Assembly: GCF_019429625.1 (NCBI RefSeq)
Contig: NZ_JAHXRW010000019.1
Span: 1 to 37,123 of the forward strand
Source: Celeribacter sp. PS-C1
Lineage (GTDB): Bacteria > Pseudomonadota > Alphaproteobacteria > Rhodobacterales > Rhodobacteraceae
Reading direction: 5' to 3'
Length of the DNA stretch: 37,123 nt
Shown here in pieces: positions 3,103 through 9,193 of the stretch. The position numbers and the translations under genes were made by a program. Positions within the stretch are counted from its first letter, which is position 1. The number at the start of each line of letters is the position of its first letter. The notes under the pieces were generated by a model. The model was given only the letters and a program-made list of their open reading frames with translations. It made no database searches and had not been told where the DNA came from.

Positions 3103-3125
3103 ATGGAGGGCGAGGAGATTTACAC
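3103..3125 (+). pseudogene. istA: istA N-terminal stub
   Basis: After the IS21 left end, ATG 3103 opens a short frame (MEGEEIY...) resembling the first residues of IstA proteins (of the MFAVEIYAAVR type). It is cut after about 7 codons by the IS3 left end at 3126. The assignment rests only on position and a very short match. Confidence 0.4.
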
Positions 3126-3185
3126 TGAGCTGCTGCCGGTTTCATGGACACCGAGATAAGGTGTTAATGAAACTGGAGAATCTAC

Positions 3186-3476
3186 ATGACAAGAAGGATG
3201 TTCAGCCGCGAGTTCAAACAAGAAGCGGTGGAGTTGATAACGAAGCGTGGTGTCAGCATGGCGCAGGCTTCAAGGGATCTTGGAATACACGCGACTGTTC
3301 TTCGTCGATGGGTGCGTGCTGCTGAAGCAGACGGTCCCTCGGCGTTCCCTGGCAACGGAAAGCTAACACCCGAGCAGGAAGAGCTCAGAGCGCTTCGGCG
3401 TGAGGTGACCAAGTTGAAGGCTGAGCGCGATATTTTAAAAAAGGCGGCCGCCTACTTCGCCAAGGACCAGCTGTGA
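3186..3476 (+). CDS. IS3-family OrfA (HTH DNA-binding subunit)
   Basis: The product is 96 residues. An N-terminal helix-turn-helix (SREFKQEAVELITKRG then SMAQASRDLGIHATVLRRWV) is followed by a leucine-zipper-like coiled coil (EELRALRREVTKLKAERDILKKA) that pairs OrfA and OrfAB in IS3 elements. Near the C-terminus the codons TTA AAA AAG (3435-3443) form the slippery heptamer A AAA AAG. A -1 shift there joins this frame to orfB without a stop. OrfA ends with TGA overlapping the GTG that opens orfB. Confidence 0.92.
   Translation: MTRRMFSREFKQEAVELITKRGVSMAQASRDLGIHATVLRRWVRAAEADGPSAFPGNGKLTPEQEELRALRREVTKLKAERDILKKAAAYFAKDQL
3437..3443 (+). other. Probable programmed -1 frameshift site (A AAA AAG)
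   Basis: The heptamer lies in phase with orfA codons TTA AAA AAG. It is followed at once by the self-complementary GGCGGCCGCC. The -1 frame stays open into orfB. This is the standard way IS3-family elements make the OrfAB transposase. Function is inferred from the family. Confidence 0.75.
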
Positions 3477-4390
3477 TGTTTGGCTTTGTTGCGAAGCACC
3501 GAGGGGTCTGGCCGGTGAGTTGGATGTGTGACGCGCTCGGTGTGTCACGAAGTGGCTTCCATGCCTGGCTAACGCGATCACGAAGCGCGAGGGAGTTGCG
3601 CGACGAAGAACTGTCGTCGGCCATTCGTGCAAGCTTTCTACGGTCGGACCGGACCTACGGAGCCCGGCGGACCTGGCATGATCTTCTCGAAGACGGATAT
3701 ACGTGTGGCTTGCATTGCGTTGAACGGTTAATGCGACAAGCGGCCTTCAAAGCCCGCCCGAAGCGTCGCCAGCCTCCAAAGGACCACGGCACACGATCGG
3801 TCATAGCTGCAAACGTGCTGGAGAGAGAGTTTGAGGCAAACGGTCCGAACCAGAAATGGGTAGCGGACTTCACGTACATCTGGACAGCGGAGGGCTGGCT
3901 TTATGTCGCCGCCGTTATTGATCTCTTCTCGCGACGCGTCGTCGGATGGTCCATGAGCGATCAAATGACGTCCCAGATGGTCACGGACGCTTTGATCATG
4001 GCGATCTGGCGCAGAGGGCGGCCAAAGGAGTTGCTGCACCATTCCGATCAGGGCAGCCAATACACCAGCGAACCGTTCCAAAGGCTGTTGGCCGATCACG
4101 GCATCACCTGCTCGATGAGCCGGTCTGGAAATGTCTGGGAGTTCAAGACGGTCCGCGCCAGCGGATTGAATGATCCGGGGGATCATTCAAAGGCGCAGAA
4201 CGCCGCAATGGAGAGCTTCTTCTCGTCTTTGAAAACTGAAAGAGTCAGGCGCAAAACCTATCGAACCAGAAGACAGGCTCGCGCCGATGTGTTCGATTAT
4301 ATTGAGAGGTTCTACAATCCAACGCGTCGCCACTCGACCATCGGCTATTTAAGCCCTATGACCTTCGAGGAGCGAGCTATGAAAGCTTAA
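3473..4390 (+). CDS. IS3-family OrfB transposase (DDE), with a 20-residue in-frame insertion
   Basis: This is the catalytic subunit, 305 residues, normally made as an OrfAB fusion. The rve integrase core is visible: first Asp in VADFTYIWT, second Asp in HHSDQGSQYTS, and Glu in NAAMESFFSSLKTER, with the usual C-terminus (YIERFYNPTRRHSTIGYLSP). The unusual part is codons from 4139 to 4198. They insert 20 residues (starting EFKTVRASGLNDPGDHS) between SGNVW and NAAMES. IS3-family proteins normally read SGNVWDNAAMES there. The insertion lies four residues before the catalytic Glu and is shared by copy 2. The frame is intact, but whether this version is active is unknown. Confidence 0.9.
   Translation: MMFGFVAKHRGVWPVSWMCDALGVSRSGFHAWLTRSRSARELRDEELSSAIRASFLRSDRTYGARRTWHDLLEDGYTCGLHCVERLMRQAAFKARPKRRQPPKDHGTRSVIAANVLEREFEANGPNQKWVADFTYIWTAEGWLYVAAVIDLFSRRVVGWSMSDQMTSQMVTDALIMAIWRRGRPKELLHHSDQGSQYTSEPFQRLLADHGITCSMSRSGNVWEFKTVRASGLNDPGDHSKAQNAAMESFFSSLKTERVRRKTYRTRRQARADVFDYIERFYNPTRRHSTIGYLSPMTFEERAMKA
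4139..4198 (+). repeat. 60-bp palindromic insertion inside orfB (copy E1)
   Basis: Exactly 60 bp separate the SGNVW codons from the NAAMES codons. The core is a perfect hairpin: arms TTGAATGATCC (4166-4176) and GGATCATTCAA (4180-4190) around GGG. It ends in AGGCGCAG. It keeps the reading frame open. The same insertion is at 8810-8869. A shorter relative with the same GGGGGATCA core and AGGCGCA end is at 8236-8280. Confidence 0.8.
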
Positions 4391-4422
4391 GTTGCCGTCC
4401 ACGAAACCGGCAGCAGCTCAGG

Positions 4423-5367
4423 GTGCCGCAGTCGGTGCTTTATGACAATGACCGCTGCCTGGTCTCGAAGATCCAGCCGGATGGTACCCGGGTACGCGCC
4501 AAGCTGTTCAGCGGGTTGCTGTCACACTACCTGTTCCGAGATCGCTACGGACGGCCCGGCAAAGGGAATGATAAGGGGAATGTTGAGGGAATGGTGGGCT
4601 ATGCCCGCCGTAACCACATGGTGCCGATCCCCCACTTCCCGGACTGGGAGAGCTTCAACGCCTATCTCGAAGAGCAGTGTCTCGCTCGTCAGAACGATAT
4701 GCTCCGGGGGCACACGGAGACCATCGGCTCGCGTTTGCAACTGGATCTGGCCGAGATGCGCCCCTTGCCAGCCACTCCCTTTGAGGCCTGCGCACAGGCC
4801 AGCGGTCGGGTGAGTTCCCAGTCTTTGGTCCGCTACGACACCAACGATTACTCGGTCCCCGTGGCTTACGGCCATCAGGATGTCTGGGTGCGGGCCTATG
4901 TCGATCAGGTGGTGATTGGTTGCCGTGGGGACGTGATCGCACGCCATCCGCGGTGCTACGCGCGCGAGGACATGGTGTTCGACCCGATCCACTACCTCCC
5001 GCTGATCGAACGCAAGATCAATGCCCTGGATCAGGCCGCGCCTCTTGCAGAGTGGGGCTTGCCAGACGACTTCGACACGCTGCGCCGCCTGATGGAAGCG
5101 CGCATGCTGAAGGCAGGGCGCCGCGAGTATGTCCAGGTGCTGCGCCTTCTGGAGACCTTCGGCATGGAGGAGCTACACACCGCCGTAAAACAGGCCCTGA
5201 AGATGGGCGCGGTCGGCTTTGATGCTGTGAAGCATCTGGTTCTGTGTCAGGTCGAGAAGCGGCCCCCACGGCTCGACCTCGAGGTGTACCCCTACCTGCC
5301 ACGGGCGCGGGTCGAGACGACCTCCGCGGCCAGCTACATGTCCCTGATGTCGGAGGCTGCGGAATGA
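4423..5367 (+). pseudogene. istA: IS21-family transposase IstA, C-terminal part
   Basis: The frame encodes about 314 residues of IstA, lacking the N-terminal ~190 (HTH and the first catalytic Asp region), which were lost at the IS3 junction. It begins VPQSVLYDND, which precedes the second half of the integrase core (GNDKGNVEGMVGYARRN carries the catalytic Glu). It continues through the IstA C-terminal region (NDYSVPVAYG...KREYVQVLRLLE-type segment). The stop overlaps the istB start (ATGA). No start codon or ribosome binding site suited to expression is visible, so the product is presumably not an active transposase. Confidence 0.88.
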
Positions 5368-6128
5368 CCCATGTCCCCGAGATCCTGCTGGAGCATCACC
5401 TCAAGAAGCTGAAGCTTCCGACATTCCTGCGTGAGTATCAGAAGGTGGCGCGCCAATGCGCCACCGAGGGCTTGGATCATGTCCAGTTCCTGACGCGCCT
5501 GGTCGAACTGGAGCTGATCGATCGCGAGCGACGGATGGTCGAGCGCCGCATCAAGACGGCCAAGTTCCCGGCCACCAAAAGCCTCGACAGCTTCGACTTC
5601 AAGGCAATCCCCAAGCTCAACAAGATGCAGGTGCTGGATCTGGCGCGCTGCGACTGGATCGAACGGCGCGAGAACGTAATTGCTCTTGGGCCAAGCGGCA
5701 CCGGTAAAACCCACATTGCCCTCGGCCTGGGGCTCGCCGCTTGCCAAAAAGGAATGACCGTCAGCTTCACCACCGCCGCTGCTCTGGTCAACGAACTGAT
5801 GGAGGCACGCGACGAGCGCCGCCTACTGCGGGTTCAGAAGCAAGTGGCCAGCGCCAAGCTGCTGATCATCGACGAATTGGGCTTCGTCCCTCTCTCCAAA
5901 ACCGGTGCCGAGCTGCTCTTCGAGTTGATCTCGCAACGCTACGAGCGCGGGGCCACGCTGATCACCAGCAACTTGCCCTTCGATGAATGGACGGAAACCT
6001 TTGGCACCGAGCGCCTCACCGGCGCGCTCCTGGACCGGCTGACCCACCACGTCAACATCCTCGAGATGAATGGTGAGAGCTATCGCCTGGCTCAGAGCCA
6101 AGCGCGAAAAGCCACCAAAACCCCCTGA
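5364..6128 (+). CDS. istB: IS21-family helper ATPase IstB
   Basis: IstB is an AAA+ ATPase that loads IstA-bound ends onto target DNA. Length is 254 residues, normal for the family. The start chosen is ATG 5364, which overlaps the istA stop (ATGA) and gives MTHVPEILLEHHLKKLKLP, a typical IstB opening. Walker A is GPSGTGKTHIA and Walker B is LLIIDELGF. A sensor region (ITSNLPFDEW) and an arginine-rich C-terminus follow (TERLTGALLDRLTHHV...SYR). The gene looks intact although its partner istA is broken. An earlier in-frame start at 5244 would overlap istA by 120 bp and is unlikely. Confidence 0.93.
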   Translation: MTHVPEILLEHHLKKLKLPTFLREYQKVARQCATEGLDHVQFLTRLVELELIDRERRMVERRIKTAKFPATKSLDSFDFKAIPKLNKMQVLDLARCDWIERRENVIALGPSGTGKTHIALGLGLAACQKGMTVSFTTAAALVNELMEARDERRLLRVQKQVASAKLLIIDELGFVPLSKTGAELLFELISQRYERGATLITSNLPFDEWTETFGTERLTGALLDRLTHHVNILEMNGESYRLAQSQARKATKTP

Positions 6129-6502: not shown

Positions 6503-6528
6503 GCGAGGCTTGTCCGCCATTGATGGTG

Positions 6529-6539
6529 TGGATGGCCCC
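6529..6539 (+). repeat. IS1111-type subterminal inverted repeat, left
   Basis: TGGATGGCCCC is the exact inverse of GGGGCCATCCA at 7879-7889. It lies about 26 bp inside the left border. Confidence 0.65.
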
Positions 6540-6600
6540 ATCAAACGGCATCGCAATGTGCCAAGGTGGGTTTGACTACAGCCACCGAAAGGAGTCAACT

Positions 6601-7620
6601 ATGGAACAGCCTAACACGATCGGCCTCGATCTGGCCAAGAATGTCTTTCAGGTTCATGGTGTCAGCGCGAATGGGACCGTGGTGTGCCGTCGCCAGTTGA
6701 GGCGGGCACAGCTTCTGATGTTTTTCTCGCGACTGGAGCCTTGTCTGGTTGGCATGGAAGCCTGCGCTGGCGCGCATCATTGGGGGCGGGAGATCGCCGC
6801 GTTGGGGCATGAGGTCCGCCTCATGCCGCCAGCATACGTCAAGCCTTACGTGAAGCGAGGCAAAACAGATGCGGTCGACGCGGAAGCCATCTGCGAAGCG
6901 GTGACGCGCCCGACCATGCGCTTTGTACCGGTGAAATCGGCAGAGACCCAGGCAGCCCTGCTCGATCACAAGACGCGGGATTTCCTTGTCCGGCAACGGA
7001 CGCAGATCATCAATGCAATCCGGGCACATATGGGTGAGTTCGGCGTCGTGGTGGCGAAAGGCATCCAGAACATCGAGCGTCTGATCGCCGCCGCCCGGAA
7101 CGTACCGGAAGCCGCACGAGCTGCCGTGGATATGCTGGCTGACCAGCTTCAGGACACGCAGAACCGGATCGATGCGGTCACGGCACGGATTGCTGAGAGC
7201 CAAGCCGATGATCCATTGGCTCGGCGTTTGGCAACGGTGCCCGGGGTAGGCGCGATCTCCTCAAGCGCCATTGCCGCGACGACGCCGGACGTGAGTGCCT
7301 TCCGCAGCGGCCGTGACTATGCGGCCTGGCTTGGCCTGACCCCGCGCGCCTATTCCAGCGGCGGCAAGGCACGGCTAGGGCGGATATCGAAGGCCGGAAA
7401 TCGGTATCTGCGACGGTTACTCTATCTGGGTGCCATGGCCAGGATTAGCGCGCGGCGGGGCCGCCGAGCGGCAGCCTCGGACGCCACCCCCGACTGGCTC
7501 GACCGAATGCTTGAGCGCAAGCCGGTGAAGGTCGTCGCAATCGCATTGGCGAACCGCATGGCGCGGACGGTATGGGCGCTGATCAGAGGCGGCGAGAGCT
7601 ACCGGGCGGCCTTGGCATGA
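6601..7620 (+). CDS. IS110-family transposase (DEDD/RuvC-like recombinase)
   Basis: The product is 339 residues. It starts at ATG 6601 behind a clear ribosome binding site (AAAGGAG, 7 bp upstream), opening MEQPNTIGLDLAKNVFQVHG. The first acidic residue is in GLDLAKN, the second in GMEACAGAHHW, and the next pair in KTDAVDAEAI, together making the RuvC-like DEDD fold. The C-terminal transposase-20 domain follows, with the PGVGAISS helix-hairpin-helix and the RAYSSGGKARLGRISKAGN segment holding the conserved serine. The gene looks intact. In IS110 enzymes target choice is directed by an RNA encoded in the element's noncoding end. Confidence 0.93.
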   Translation: MEQPNTIGLDLAKNVFQVHGVSANGTVVCRRQLRRAQLLMFFSRLEPCLVGMEACAGAHHWGREIAALGHEVRLMPPAYVKPYVKRGKTDAVDAEAICEAVTRPTMRFVPVKSAETQAALLDHKTRDFLVRQRTQIINAIRAHMGEFGVVVAKGIQNIERLIAAARNVPEAARAAVDMLADQLQDTQNRIDAVTARIAESQADDPLARRLATVPGVGAISSSAIAATTPDVSAFRSGRDYAAWLGLTPRAYSSGGKARLGRISKAGNRYLRRLLYLGAMARISARRGRRAAASDATPDWLDRMLERKPVKVVAIALANRMARTVWALIRGGESYRAALA

Positions 7621-7949
7621 AGTGATCGAGATCGGCCACCAGCGCTGAGCTGGCAGGCCAGGAGATGGTGAGGCGCAGCGTGAGGTGATGGCATAGAGAC
7701 GGTAAAAGCGGAACGGAACACCCAGTTCGGACCGAAGCGCCTTTGAGCGCGTGCCATTGATCGGGATCCGTCCGTTGGCTGACTTCATCAAGGCGCGCAG
7801 CGATAGATCTGCAAATTGACGCCGTATACATGGCCGCGACCGACCGAAATGCCAGACCCAAACAAAGCTCTTGCCAAGGGGGCCATCCATACATGGTCCG
7901 AGGAGTTGCCAGAGGGTGCGCCATTGGTCCAATCGCCGCTGGCGACGCC
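7621..7949 (+). ncRNA. IS1111-type right end, candidate bridge/seek RNA region
   Basis: This ~330-bp noncoding stretch lies between the transposase stop and the right border. No open frame here looks real. IS1111-group elements encode their guide RNA between the transposase gene and the right end. The long right end, short left end and subterminal repeats fit that layout. The exact RNA borders and guide loops cannot be set by eye. Several short self-complementary stretches are present (for example around 7640-7660 and 7895-7945). Confidence 0.45.
7879..7889 (+). repeat. IS1111-type subterminal inverted repeat, right
   Basis: GGGGCCATCCA pairs exactly with 6529-6539. It lies about 60 bp inside the right border. 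Confidence 0.65.
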
Positions 7950-8017
7950 GAGCGCCTACTTCGCCAAGGACCAGCTGTGATGTTTGGCTTTGTTGAGAAG
8001 CACCGAGGGGTCTGGCC

Positions 8018-8057
8018 CCTCTCGGCAGATTGCTTTGCAATCGCCTGCCGGCACATG
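8018..8057 (+). repeat. Palindromic insertion A (40 bp)
   Basis: Compared with copy 1 (CTGGCC joined to GGTGAG), 40 bp are inserted here. They begin CCTCTCGGCAGATT and end TGCCGGCACATG. The core folds as CGGCA..GATTGC / GCAATC..TGCCG around TTT. It closely resembles the insertion at 8573-8618. Confidence 0.75.
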
Positions 8058-8235: not shown

Positions 8236-8280
8236 GTTAAGCTGTTAAGAAATTGGTCTGGGGGATCAATTTTAGGCGCA
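8236..8280 (+). repeat. Palindromic insertion B (45 bp)
   Basis: Copy 1 has no equivalent between its CTTCTCGA and ACGGATA. The insert starts GTTAAGCTGTTAAG and contains the hairpin AAATTGGTC / GATCAATTT around TGGGG. It ends AGGCGCA, like the 60-bp insertion at 4139 and 8810. Confidence 0.7.
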
Positions 8281-8450
8281 AACGGATATACGTGTGGCTT
8301 GCATTGCGTTGAACGGTTAATGCGACAAGCGGCCTTCAAAGCCCGCCCGAAGCGTCGCCAGCCTCCAAAGGACCACGGCACACGACCGGTCATAGCTGCA
8401 AACATGCTGGAGAGAGAGTTTGAGGCAAACGGTCCGAACCAGAAATGGGG

Positions 8451-8490
8451 TGAGCCAATGTCTCGCCACTGGTCCGAGAGACATTGGCGA
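8451..8490 (+). repeat. Palindromic insertion C (40 bp)
   Basis: The insert interrupts the codons for the first catalytic Asp region. It has a perfect 11-bp stem GCCAATGTCTC / GAGACATTGGC (8454-8464 and 8478-8488) with a 13-nt loop. It is unlike the other insertions in sequence. Confidence 0.7.
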
Positions 8491-8572
8491 ACGACTTCAC
8501 GTACATCTGGACAGCGGAGGGCTGGCTCTATGTCGCCGCCGTCATTGATCTCTTCTCGCGGCGCGTCGTCGG

Positions 8573-8618
8573 CCTCCTCTCGGCAGATTTGCATTGCAAA
8601 TCGCGTGCCGGGCACATG
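8573..8618 (+). repeat. Palindromic insertion D (46 bp)
   Basis: It starts CCTCCTCTCGGCAG and ends GGGCACATG. The core is GATTTGCA / TGCAAATC around one T, extended by CGGCA / TGCCG. It shares both flanks and the outer stem with insertion A, while the inner stem differs in length but stays paired. Confidence 0.75.
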
Positions 8619-8809: not shown

Positions 8810-8869
8810 GAGTTCAAGACGGTCCGCGCCAGCGGATTGAATGATCCGGGGGATCATTCAAAGGCGCAG
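8810..8869 (+). repeat. 60-bp palindromic insertion (copy E2)
   Basis: This is the same 60 bp as at 4139-4198, at the same place before the catalytic Glu codons. The hairpin arms TTGAATGATCC / GGATCATTCAA enclose GGG. Its presence in both IS3 copies shows it predates their duplication. Confidence 0.8.
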
Positions 8870-9193
8870 AACGCCGCAATGGAGAGCTTCTTCTCGTCTT
8901 TGAAAACTGAAAGGGTCAGGCGCAAAACCTATCGAACCAGAAGACAGGCTCGCGCCGATGTGTTCGATTATATTGAGAGGTTCTACAATCCAACGCGTCG
9001 CCACTCGACCATCGGCTATTTAAGCCCTATGACCTTCGAGGAGCGAGCTAGAAAAGCTTAAGTGGCCGTCCACGAAACCGCCAGCAGCTCAAACCACGGA
9101 CTTAATCTTGCAGTCTCAGAAAGGCGAAGGGGCGCTCACATTTCAAGGTGGCGAGCCGCCTGCCAAAACAAAAGTTCCGCCAGGCACACCCTT

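Follow-up and report, generated by a model that had tools for sequence, protein, structure and literature searches.

A 61-nucleotide hairpin within an IS3 transposase gene of Celeribacter and an apparently new, IS-biased family of miniature palindromic elements

Introduction

What is a perfect palindrome doing inside the transposase gene of an insertion sequence (IS), shortly before the codon for the catalytic glutamate? The question arises from a 37,123-nucleotide stretch of the Celeribacter sp. PS-C1 genome (contig NZ_JAHXRW010000019.1), here called the window. The original prediction described a 60-bp palindrome that had entered an IS3 transposase gene in frame, took the IS to have spread while carrying it, and drew a comparison with Rickettsia palindromic elements (RPEs). 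Short palindromic repeats are usually intergenic. Over half of the copies described here, however, lie within transposase genes, and these belong to numerous unrelated ISs, of which at least one has moved together with its hairpin. Nature thus provides a way to ask whether miniature repeats target ISs, tame them or live as their parasites.

Results

An IS3 transposase gene carries a hairpin in frame

The first IS3 element of the window, copy 1, is bounded by terminal inverted repeats at 3122..3149 (left) and 4397..4424 (right), with no target duplication at its flanks. Both of its forward-strand reading frames run without interruption, as predicted: orfA (3186..3476) encodes 96 residues with a match to HTH_Tnp_1, and orfB (3473..4390) encodes 305 residues with a match to rve, and the predicted transposase appears intact. 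Copy 1 abuts an IS21 remnant (4423–6128) in which a truncated istA lies beside an open istB. Downstream of the IS cluster (9543–37123), the reading frames resemble, by eye, a catabolic cluster with an intradiol dioxygenase, maleylacetate reductase, FAD monooxygenases and ABC transporters of the branched-chain amino-acid type.

Empty-site alignments place in orfB, at 4141..4201 on the forward strand, a 61-nt hairpin element (GTTC...GAAC) of a family that we call F1. It stands in place of CAAC (uninserted form GGGA[CAAC]GCC), just ahead of the DDE glutamate, and folds with an energy of −23.1 kcal/mol. Its inner part (4166..4190) is a perfect palindrome by arm comparison and covariation, with the 11-bp stem that had been predicted: the arms at 4166–4176 and 4180–4190 are 100% complementary across a 3-nt GGG loop. 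The palindrome is thus real and in frame, but the element measures 61 nt by empty sites and not 60. Additional residues do separate SGNVW from NAAMES where they were said to, but the twenty codons of the prediction become a net gain of 19 residues, 4 nt having been replaced, and a conserved Asp is changed to Glu relative to seven aligned relatives. Because the exchange of 61 nt for 4 nt adds 57 nt, or 19 codons, the orfB frame of copy 1 stays open. As to looping-out of the insert, structure prediction for OrfB (eight sequences) returned a mean pLDDT of 48, with values below 50 across residues 97–270, too low for the model to bear on this point. With up to three mismatches allowed, the palindrome occurs in the 3.87-Mb genome of the window only in copy 1 and in a second IS3 copy.

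Could the segment have belonged to an IS3 subgroup from the start, as a normal piece of the protein? The same insert is indeed shared by both window copies and by a genus-mate (G588). It is, however, missing from all seven aligned OrfB relatives, which read VWD-N(A/S)AMES (of nine found in a viral-contig search, two were omitted, a short match and a relative interrupted by a stop codon), and from two DNA homologues, which read TGGGACAACGC and TGGGACAATGC. The same DNA also recurs in unrelated transposases. We regard an ancestral origin as ruled out for all practical purposes, as the original prediction supposed. The reading that we prefer, at a probability of about 0.74, is that 4141–4201 is a copy of F1, a small non-autonomous hairpin element inserted in a pre-existing IS3 orfB.

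A degraded second copy has gathered further hairpins

IS3 copy 2, degraded and about 4.7 kb from copy 1, contains the same F1 element at 8812..8872 (forward strand), identified by palindrome search and alignment to copy 1; the prediction had rightly noted this insert, at 8810–8869. The left end of copy 2 was sought and not found. Alignment to copy 1 reveals four further insertions on the forward strand, all of which fold as hairpins (−11.5 to −20.5 kcal/mol). Insertion A (8018..8057; −13.7 kcal/mol) is a 40-nt hairpin of a family F3, absent from copy 1, and insertion D (8573..8618, boundaries good to a few bases; −17.0 kcal/mol) is a second F3 hairpin. Insertion B (8236..8283; −11.5 kcal/mol) is a diverged F1-like hairpin. 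Insertion C (8450..8492; −20.5 kcal/mol) is a hairpin of a family F2, with the loop GCCACTGGTCCGA, and alone among the four has perfect arms of at least 9 bp.

A fifth, F2-like hairpin follows the AAAAAAG run that ends copy 2 orfA and is apparently split by an IS110 element: a two-part match (6503..7953, forward strand) has its left part, GCGAGGCTTGTCCGCCATTG, at 6503 and its right end, GCCGAGC, near 7947–7953. The IS110-family element apparently lies within the loop of this F2 hairpin; IS110 elements are known to choose repeat palindromes as targets. DNA related to copy 2 is present in 3 of 20 same-genus genomes, its own included. The related IS3 copy of G588 has the F1 insert and an unsplit F2 hairpin, together with a deletion that apparently runs between both F3 insertions. 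At a G588 locus with the F1 insert (L252, G588 C5), the reverse complement of the hairpin's 5' half has taken the place of its 3' half, as if from intrastrand template switching.

F1 is widespread in Rhodobacterales, inside transposase genes and between genes

A 62-nt query matched 19 of 390 Rhodobacterales genomes and seven plasmid records, of which the five at E ≤5e-6 are all from Rhodobacterales. Most plasmid records that carry a name belong to Rhodobacterales; other alphaproteobacteria account for a few, and there are isolated stray matches such as Bacillus and Streptomyces. A phage search with the 62-mer gave no match, and one 21-mer had no exact match in viral contigs. A 17-bp core, AYGRTCCGGGGGAYCRT, was found in 76 of the 390 genomes and 43 of 139 genera, and a reversed-pattern control for it gave 0 in the listed genomes. 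Rfam returned no RNA family at the gathering threshold for 12 loci, and a literature search of limited reach produced no description of these hairpins. F1 appears to be a new group of miniature palindromes, with an apparent bias toward ISs.

We read 133 distinct F1 core copies, plasmid loci included. By eye, 73 of them fall within genes for transposases or recombinases: IS3 (38), IS5 (13), IS110 (5), IS256 (4), IS481 (4), IS21 (3), IS1182 (2), tyrosine recombinase (2), IS66 (1) and a RAYT-like gene (1). Another 56 were provisionally placed, by eye, between genes or at gene 3' ends, and the remaining four look like chance coding matches. tblastn with five IS proteins of the window tagged 19 of the 133, the rest being sorted from flank translations by eye, and IS-family names that lack a Pfam match were assigned by motif. 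A Pfam scan of 20 representative fragments gave 13 transposase, recombinase or HTH matches (8 above the curated cut-off and 5 below), one TRAM domain and six fragments without a match. The TRAM domain was found at a copy that follows rimO. F1-type hairpins sit right at the 3' end of rimO-like genes at eight loci in several genomes (L047, L049, L050, L115, L121, L156, L160 and L164), mostly with a GGGCGGAGCCC tail; many of the intergenic and 3'-end copies have this extra hairpin. At L059 and L088–L094 (G328), the same core sits between different, longer GC-rich arms, with several copies close together.

Family members exist both in other proteins and in the intergenic DNA of other genomes, which is in favor of the original prediction. 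Flank translations, again by eye, show F1 at one shared Asp-Asn position, ahead of the catalytic Glu, in transposases of several IS3 subgroups; other copies follow Arg-Pro in IS110, lie within IstB in IS21 or lie in an IS256-like gene, and related hairpins occupy a second site in IS3 OrfA. Insertions are present in both orientations.

A further coding home lies outside ISs. An F1-subfamily query matched 41 plasmid records, mostly Pseudosulfitobacter clones, at E values of 0.01 or weaker; the matched gene, annotated as DUF6330 or hypothetical, has a hairpin with the same GTCCGGGGGAC core. Against the 69-position DUF6330 profile, the 90-residue protein aligns in two stretches, of which the longer starts at residue 35; this suggests an in-frame insert of about 21 residues. 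One such gene (L075, 1333–1605) has the hairpin in frame near its N terminus. IS genes are therefore not the sole coding home of F1-type hairpins. Another plasmid match overlaps the final codons of a dTDP-glucose dehydratase gene.

The 56 cores outside genes or at gene ends and the in-frame copy in this non-IS plasmid gene fit a neutral account, in which a REP-like element inserts anywhere and survives only in dispensable DNA, that is, intergenic DNA and dead or multi-copy ISs, with no targeting of ISs at all. The four hairpins that degraded copy 2 holds beyond those of copy 1 point the same way. We hold this account to be less likely than not, though a serious contender; the F2 hairpins below weigh on its other side.

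Insertion replaces about four bases

Comparison of filled and empty sites points to a loss of about 4 nt without duplication, from few DNA empty sites and with some relatives just about 80–88% identical. Terminal complementarity spans only 2–4 nt. Among 14 distinct full-length subfamily copies collected by regular expression, a count that leaves aside shorter and mutated variants, the element is 61 nt long in 13, GA lies at the left in 13 and G at the right in all 14. Where an inserted IS110 has 62 nt, five uninserted IS110 copies from other genomes show NNNAT (5 nt), an exchange of 61 for 4 nt if a shared A is retained. GGGG is replaced in an IS3 of G188 compared with Roseivivax, and CCAA in an IS5 compared with Paracoccus, with a few left-flank differences; the IS256 comparison is less clean. 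The exchange extends to the other hairpins: an F2 hairpin of Leisingera NJS204 stands in place of CATG in its 88% identical relative in M527, and insertion B of copy 2 takes the place of AGAC after GA in copy 1. Insertion A simply adds its 40 nt, and the agreement of C and D with the 4-nt rule is poorer. In orfB, then, F1 entered at GA^NNNN^G and exchanged four bases for 61, and roughly this exchange is seen at several other sites.

We considered whether F1 is a MITE of the DDE type; the loss of about 4 nt, the lack of a target-site duplication and the minimal terminal complementarity speak against it. A likeness to integron attC sites was also dropped, as the terminal GTT/AAC orientation is reversed from what we take to be the attC arrangement. 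F1 does not always keep the frame: a variant shorter by one base, like the insertions in IS110 and IS21, leads to a frameshift or a stop.

The stem is maintained by compensatory change

Across 129 F1 copies (the four chance copies dropped), five variable stem positions are paired in 98%, 98%, 92%, 89% and 61% of copies, compared with 52%, 59%, 68%, 32% and 35% when the 3' partners are shuffled, a control that ignores shared descent. The first two positions lie inside the search pattern, which allowed pairing and did not require it, and the last three lie outside. The one paired in 89% of copies, against 32% after shuffling, takes all four letters. The outer 3' arms give a weaker signal, with a mean energy of −27.0 for a copy's own arm versus −24.6 for swapped arms; in 43 of 129 copies the own arm ranked among the best 10%. 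At the level of sequence comparison, these data show that the F1 stem is maintained through compensatory change.

F2 hairpins of the genus lie almost entirely in IS3 elements

The 13-mer of the F2 loop matched 40 of 61 relatives and occurs once in the genome of the window, in insertion C. We examined all 62 F2 loop matches in the genus. Arms pair over at least 10 bp in 41 of these, and 40 of the 41 lie, by eye, in IS3-family elements, including a few that sit a short way upstream of orfA. A single insertion carried by a multi-copy IS accounts for many of these 40. The remaining strong hairpin (L316) lies in DNA without an assignment, Pfam included. Among the 21 weaker matches, about seven are in IS3 and two in tRNA-like sequences, and chance seems to explain most of the rest. 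A single genome, G591, has 19 hairpin-like matches out of 21; every one of the 19 lies in an IS3 element, they occupy about seven positions, and some of them may be recombinants of each other. Outside the genus, F2 hairpins also occur in intergenic DNA (L228, L251).

Such a distribution, like the seven or so positions in G591, argues against the neutral account, although 40 of 41 is a raw count, not scaled to the shares of IS and intergenic DNA, and many copies duplicate a single insertion. Exact F1 and F2 matches in the genome of the window are likewise confined to the two IS3 copies.

F2 stands directly after an AAAAAAG run in window copy 2, in G588 and in several G591 copies, where it could act in mRNA as a stimulator of orfA-orfB frameshifting or as an attenuator, a regulatory hairpin retained by the IS. 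The AAAAAAG position is one among many sites, however, the insert at 4141 lies deep in orfB, and both orientations occur. We consider a regulatory role quite improbable.

Insert-bearing ISs have moved

The prediction that the IS spread while carrying its insert could not stand on the two window copies, which lie close together, with copy 2 degraded; it finds its support in Leisingera. In Leisingera sp. M527, an IS3 with an in-frame F1 insert and intact OrfA and OrfB (318 aa) is flanked by GAG/GAG, a 3-bp target duplication. In G413, which we take as Leisingera sp. NJS204, four IS3 copies that are 98–99% alike carry the F1 insert and a frame-shifting F2 hairpin, and no matching target duplication was found at the four copies. 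One IS of G591 is present in three F2-bearing copies whose left flanks differ. Read from these flanks and copies, the genomes show that an insert-bearing IS has transposed in Leisingera.

The search for a mobilizing enzyme and the taming of ISs

A RAYT/REPtron partner was sought by a Y1 search of 16 element-bearing genomes. Y1 genes are present in six of them, and a hairpin lies within 1.5 kb of none of the nine Y1 loci; we rejected this candidate. Two fragments that look RAYT-like by eye (L157, L163) have one F1 copy inside and one beside, and Pfam gave no confirmation of either fragment.

Hairpins in eight IS families (by eye), several hairpin families within one IS copy and the many insertions that cause a frameshift or stop bring to mind a host or hyperparasite system that directs hairpins into transposase genes, thereby curbing transposition. 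Such silencing sits poorly with insert-bearing ISs that are still multi-copy, with the copy 1 insertion that leaves both reading frames open and with the intergenic and DUF6330 copies, and no enzyme or guide was found. On balance we think it unlikely.

Discussion

Returning to F1 as an element inserted in a pre-existing orfB, we infer that it moves as a structured single strand, a hairpin, mobilized by an enzyme supplied in trans. It would land preferentially in ISs and then be carried along as a passenger; on this view, F1 may be a minute parasite of DNA parasites, living on the ISs and traveling with them. Least certain in this scheme are the enzyme and the cause of the preference. The four-base exchange is an unusual insertion signature and could help to identify the enzyme. 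A broader version is possible but doubtful: that a Rhodobacterales system inserts at least three hairpin families mostly into transposase genes by a four-base swap at GA^NNNN^G and that ISs accumulate them, the build-up reflecting either a dedicated enzyme, making the hairpins IS hyperparasites, or a host process that favors ISs.

The comparison with RPEs holds in part. Like RPEs, F1 is a palindromic repeat found inside protein genes, readable in frame, and also between genes; copy 1 and the DUF6330 gene each have the palindrome in frame in a protein gene, as in-frame RPEs have been described (PMC10969869). Membership is not supported: the intragenic F1 copies are nearly all in IS genes and RPEs mostly in host genes, reported as unrelated ones (PMC10969869, PMC3733652), and Rfam was negative at the 12 loci searched. 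RPEs come from another order, and F1 is shorter, lies mostly in transposase genes and often breaks the frame, a distinction drawn from published descriptions.

With the REP/REPIN elements of RAYT systems, F1 shares short dispersed hairpins with a conserved core. It differs in that none of the nine Y1 loci is flanked by a hairpin, the window copy has no GTAG tag and over half of the copies are inside genes. The CGTC-tagged REPs (dRS3, RPE-4, RPE-6) are also mostly alphaproteobacterial palindromes without a known transposase. PMC3733652 reports intragenic REPs, counts RPE-4 and RPE-6 among the CGTC repeats, describes CGTC repeats that lack a dedicated transposase, and notes only a few links to transposase genes, judged fortuitous. 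Their reported stems are 8–9 bp, with loops of 4–5 nt, unlike those of F1.

For IS preference, the closest precedent by analogy is RUP of Streptococcus pneumoniae, a miniature element proposed to insert preferentially into or near ISs, perhaps limiting functional transposases (PMC3049150); the idea that miniature repeats target or tame ISs was thus already raised there. Our counts for such a preference, over half of the F1 cores and nearly all strong F2 hairpins, are raw tallies made by eye. The two elements differ in build: RUP is 107 bp long with terminal inverted repeats like those of IS630-Spn1, whereas F1 is a 61-nt hairpin that loses 4 target nt and has no recognized parent IS.
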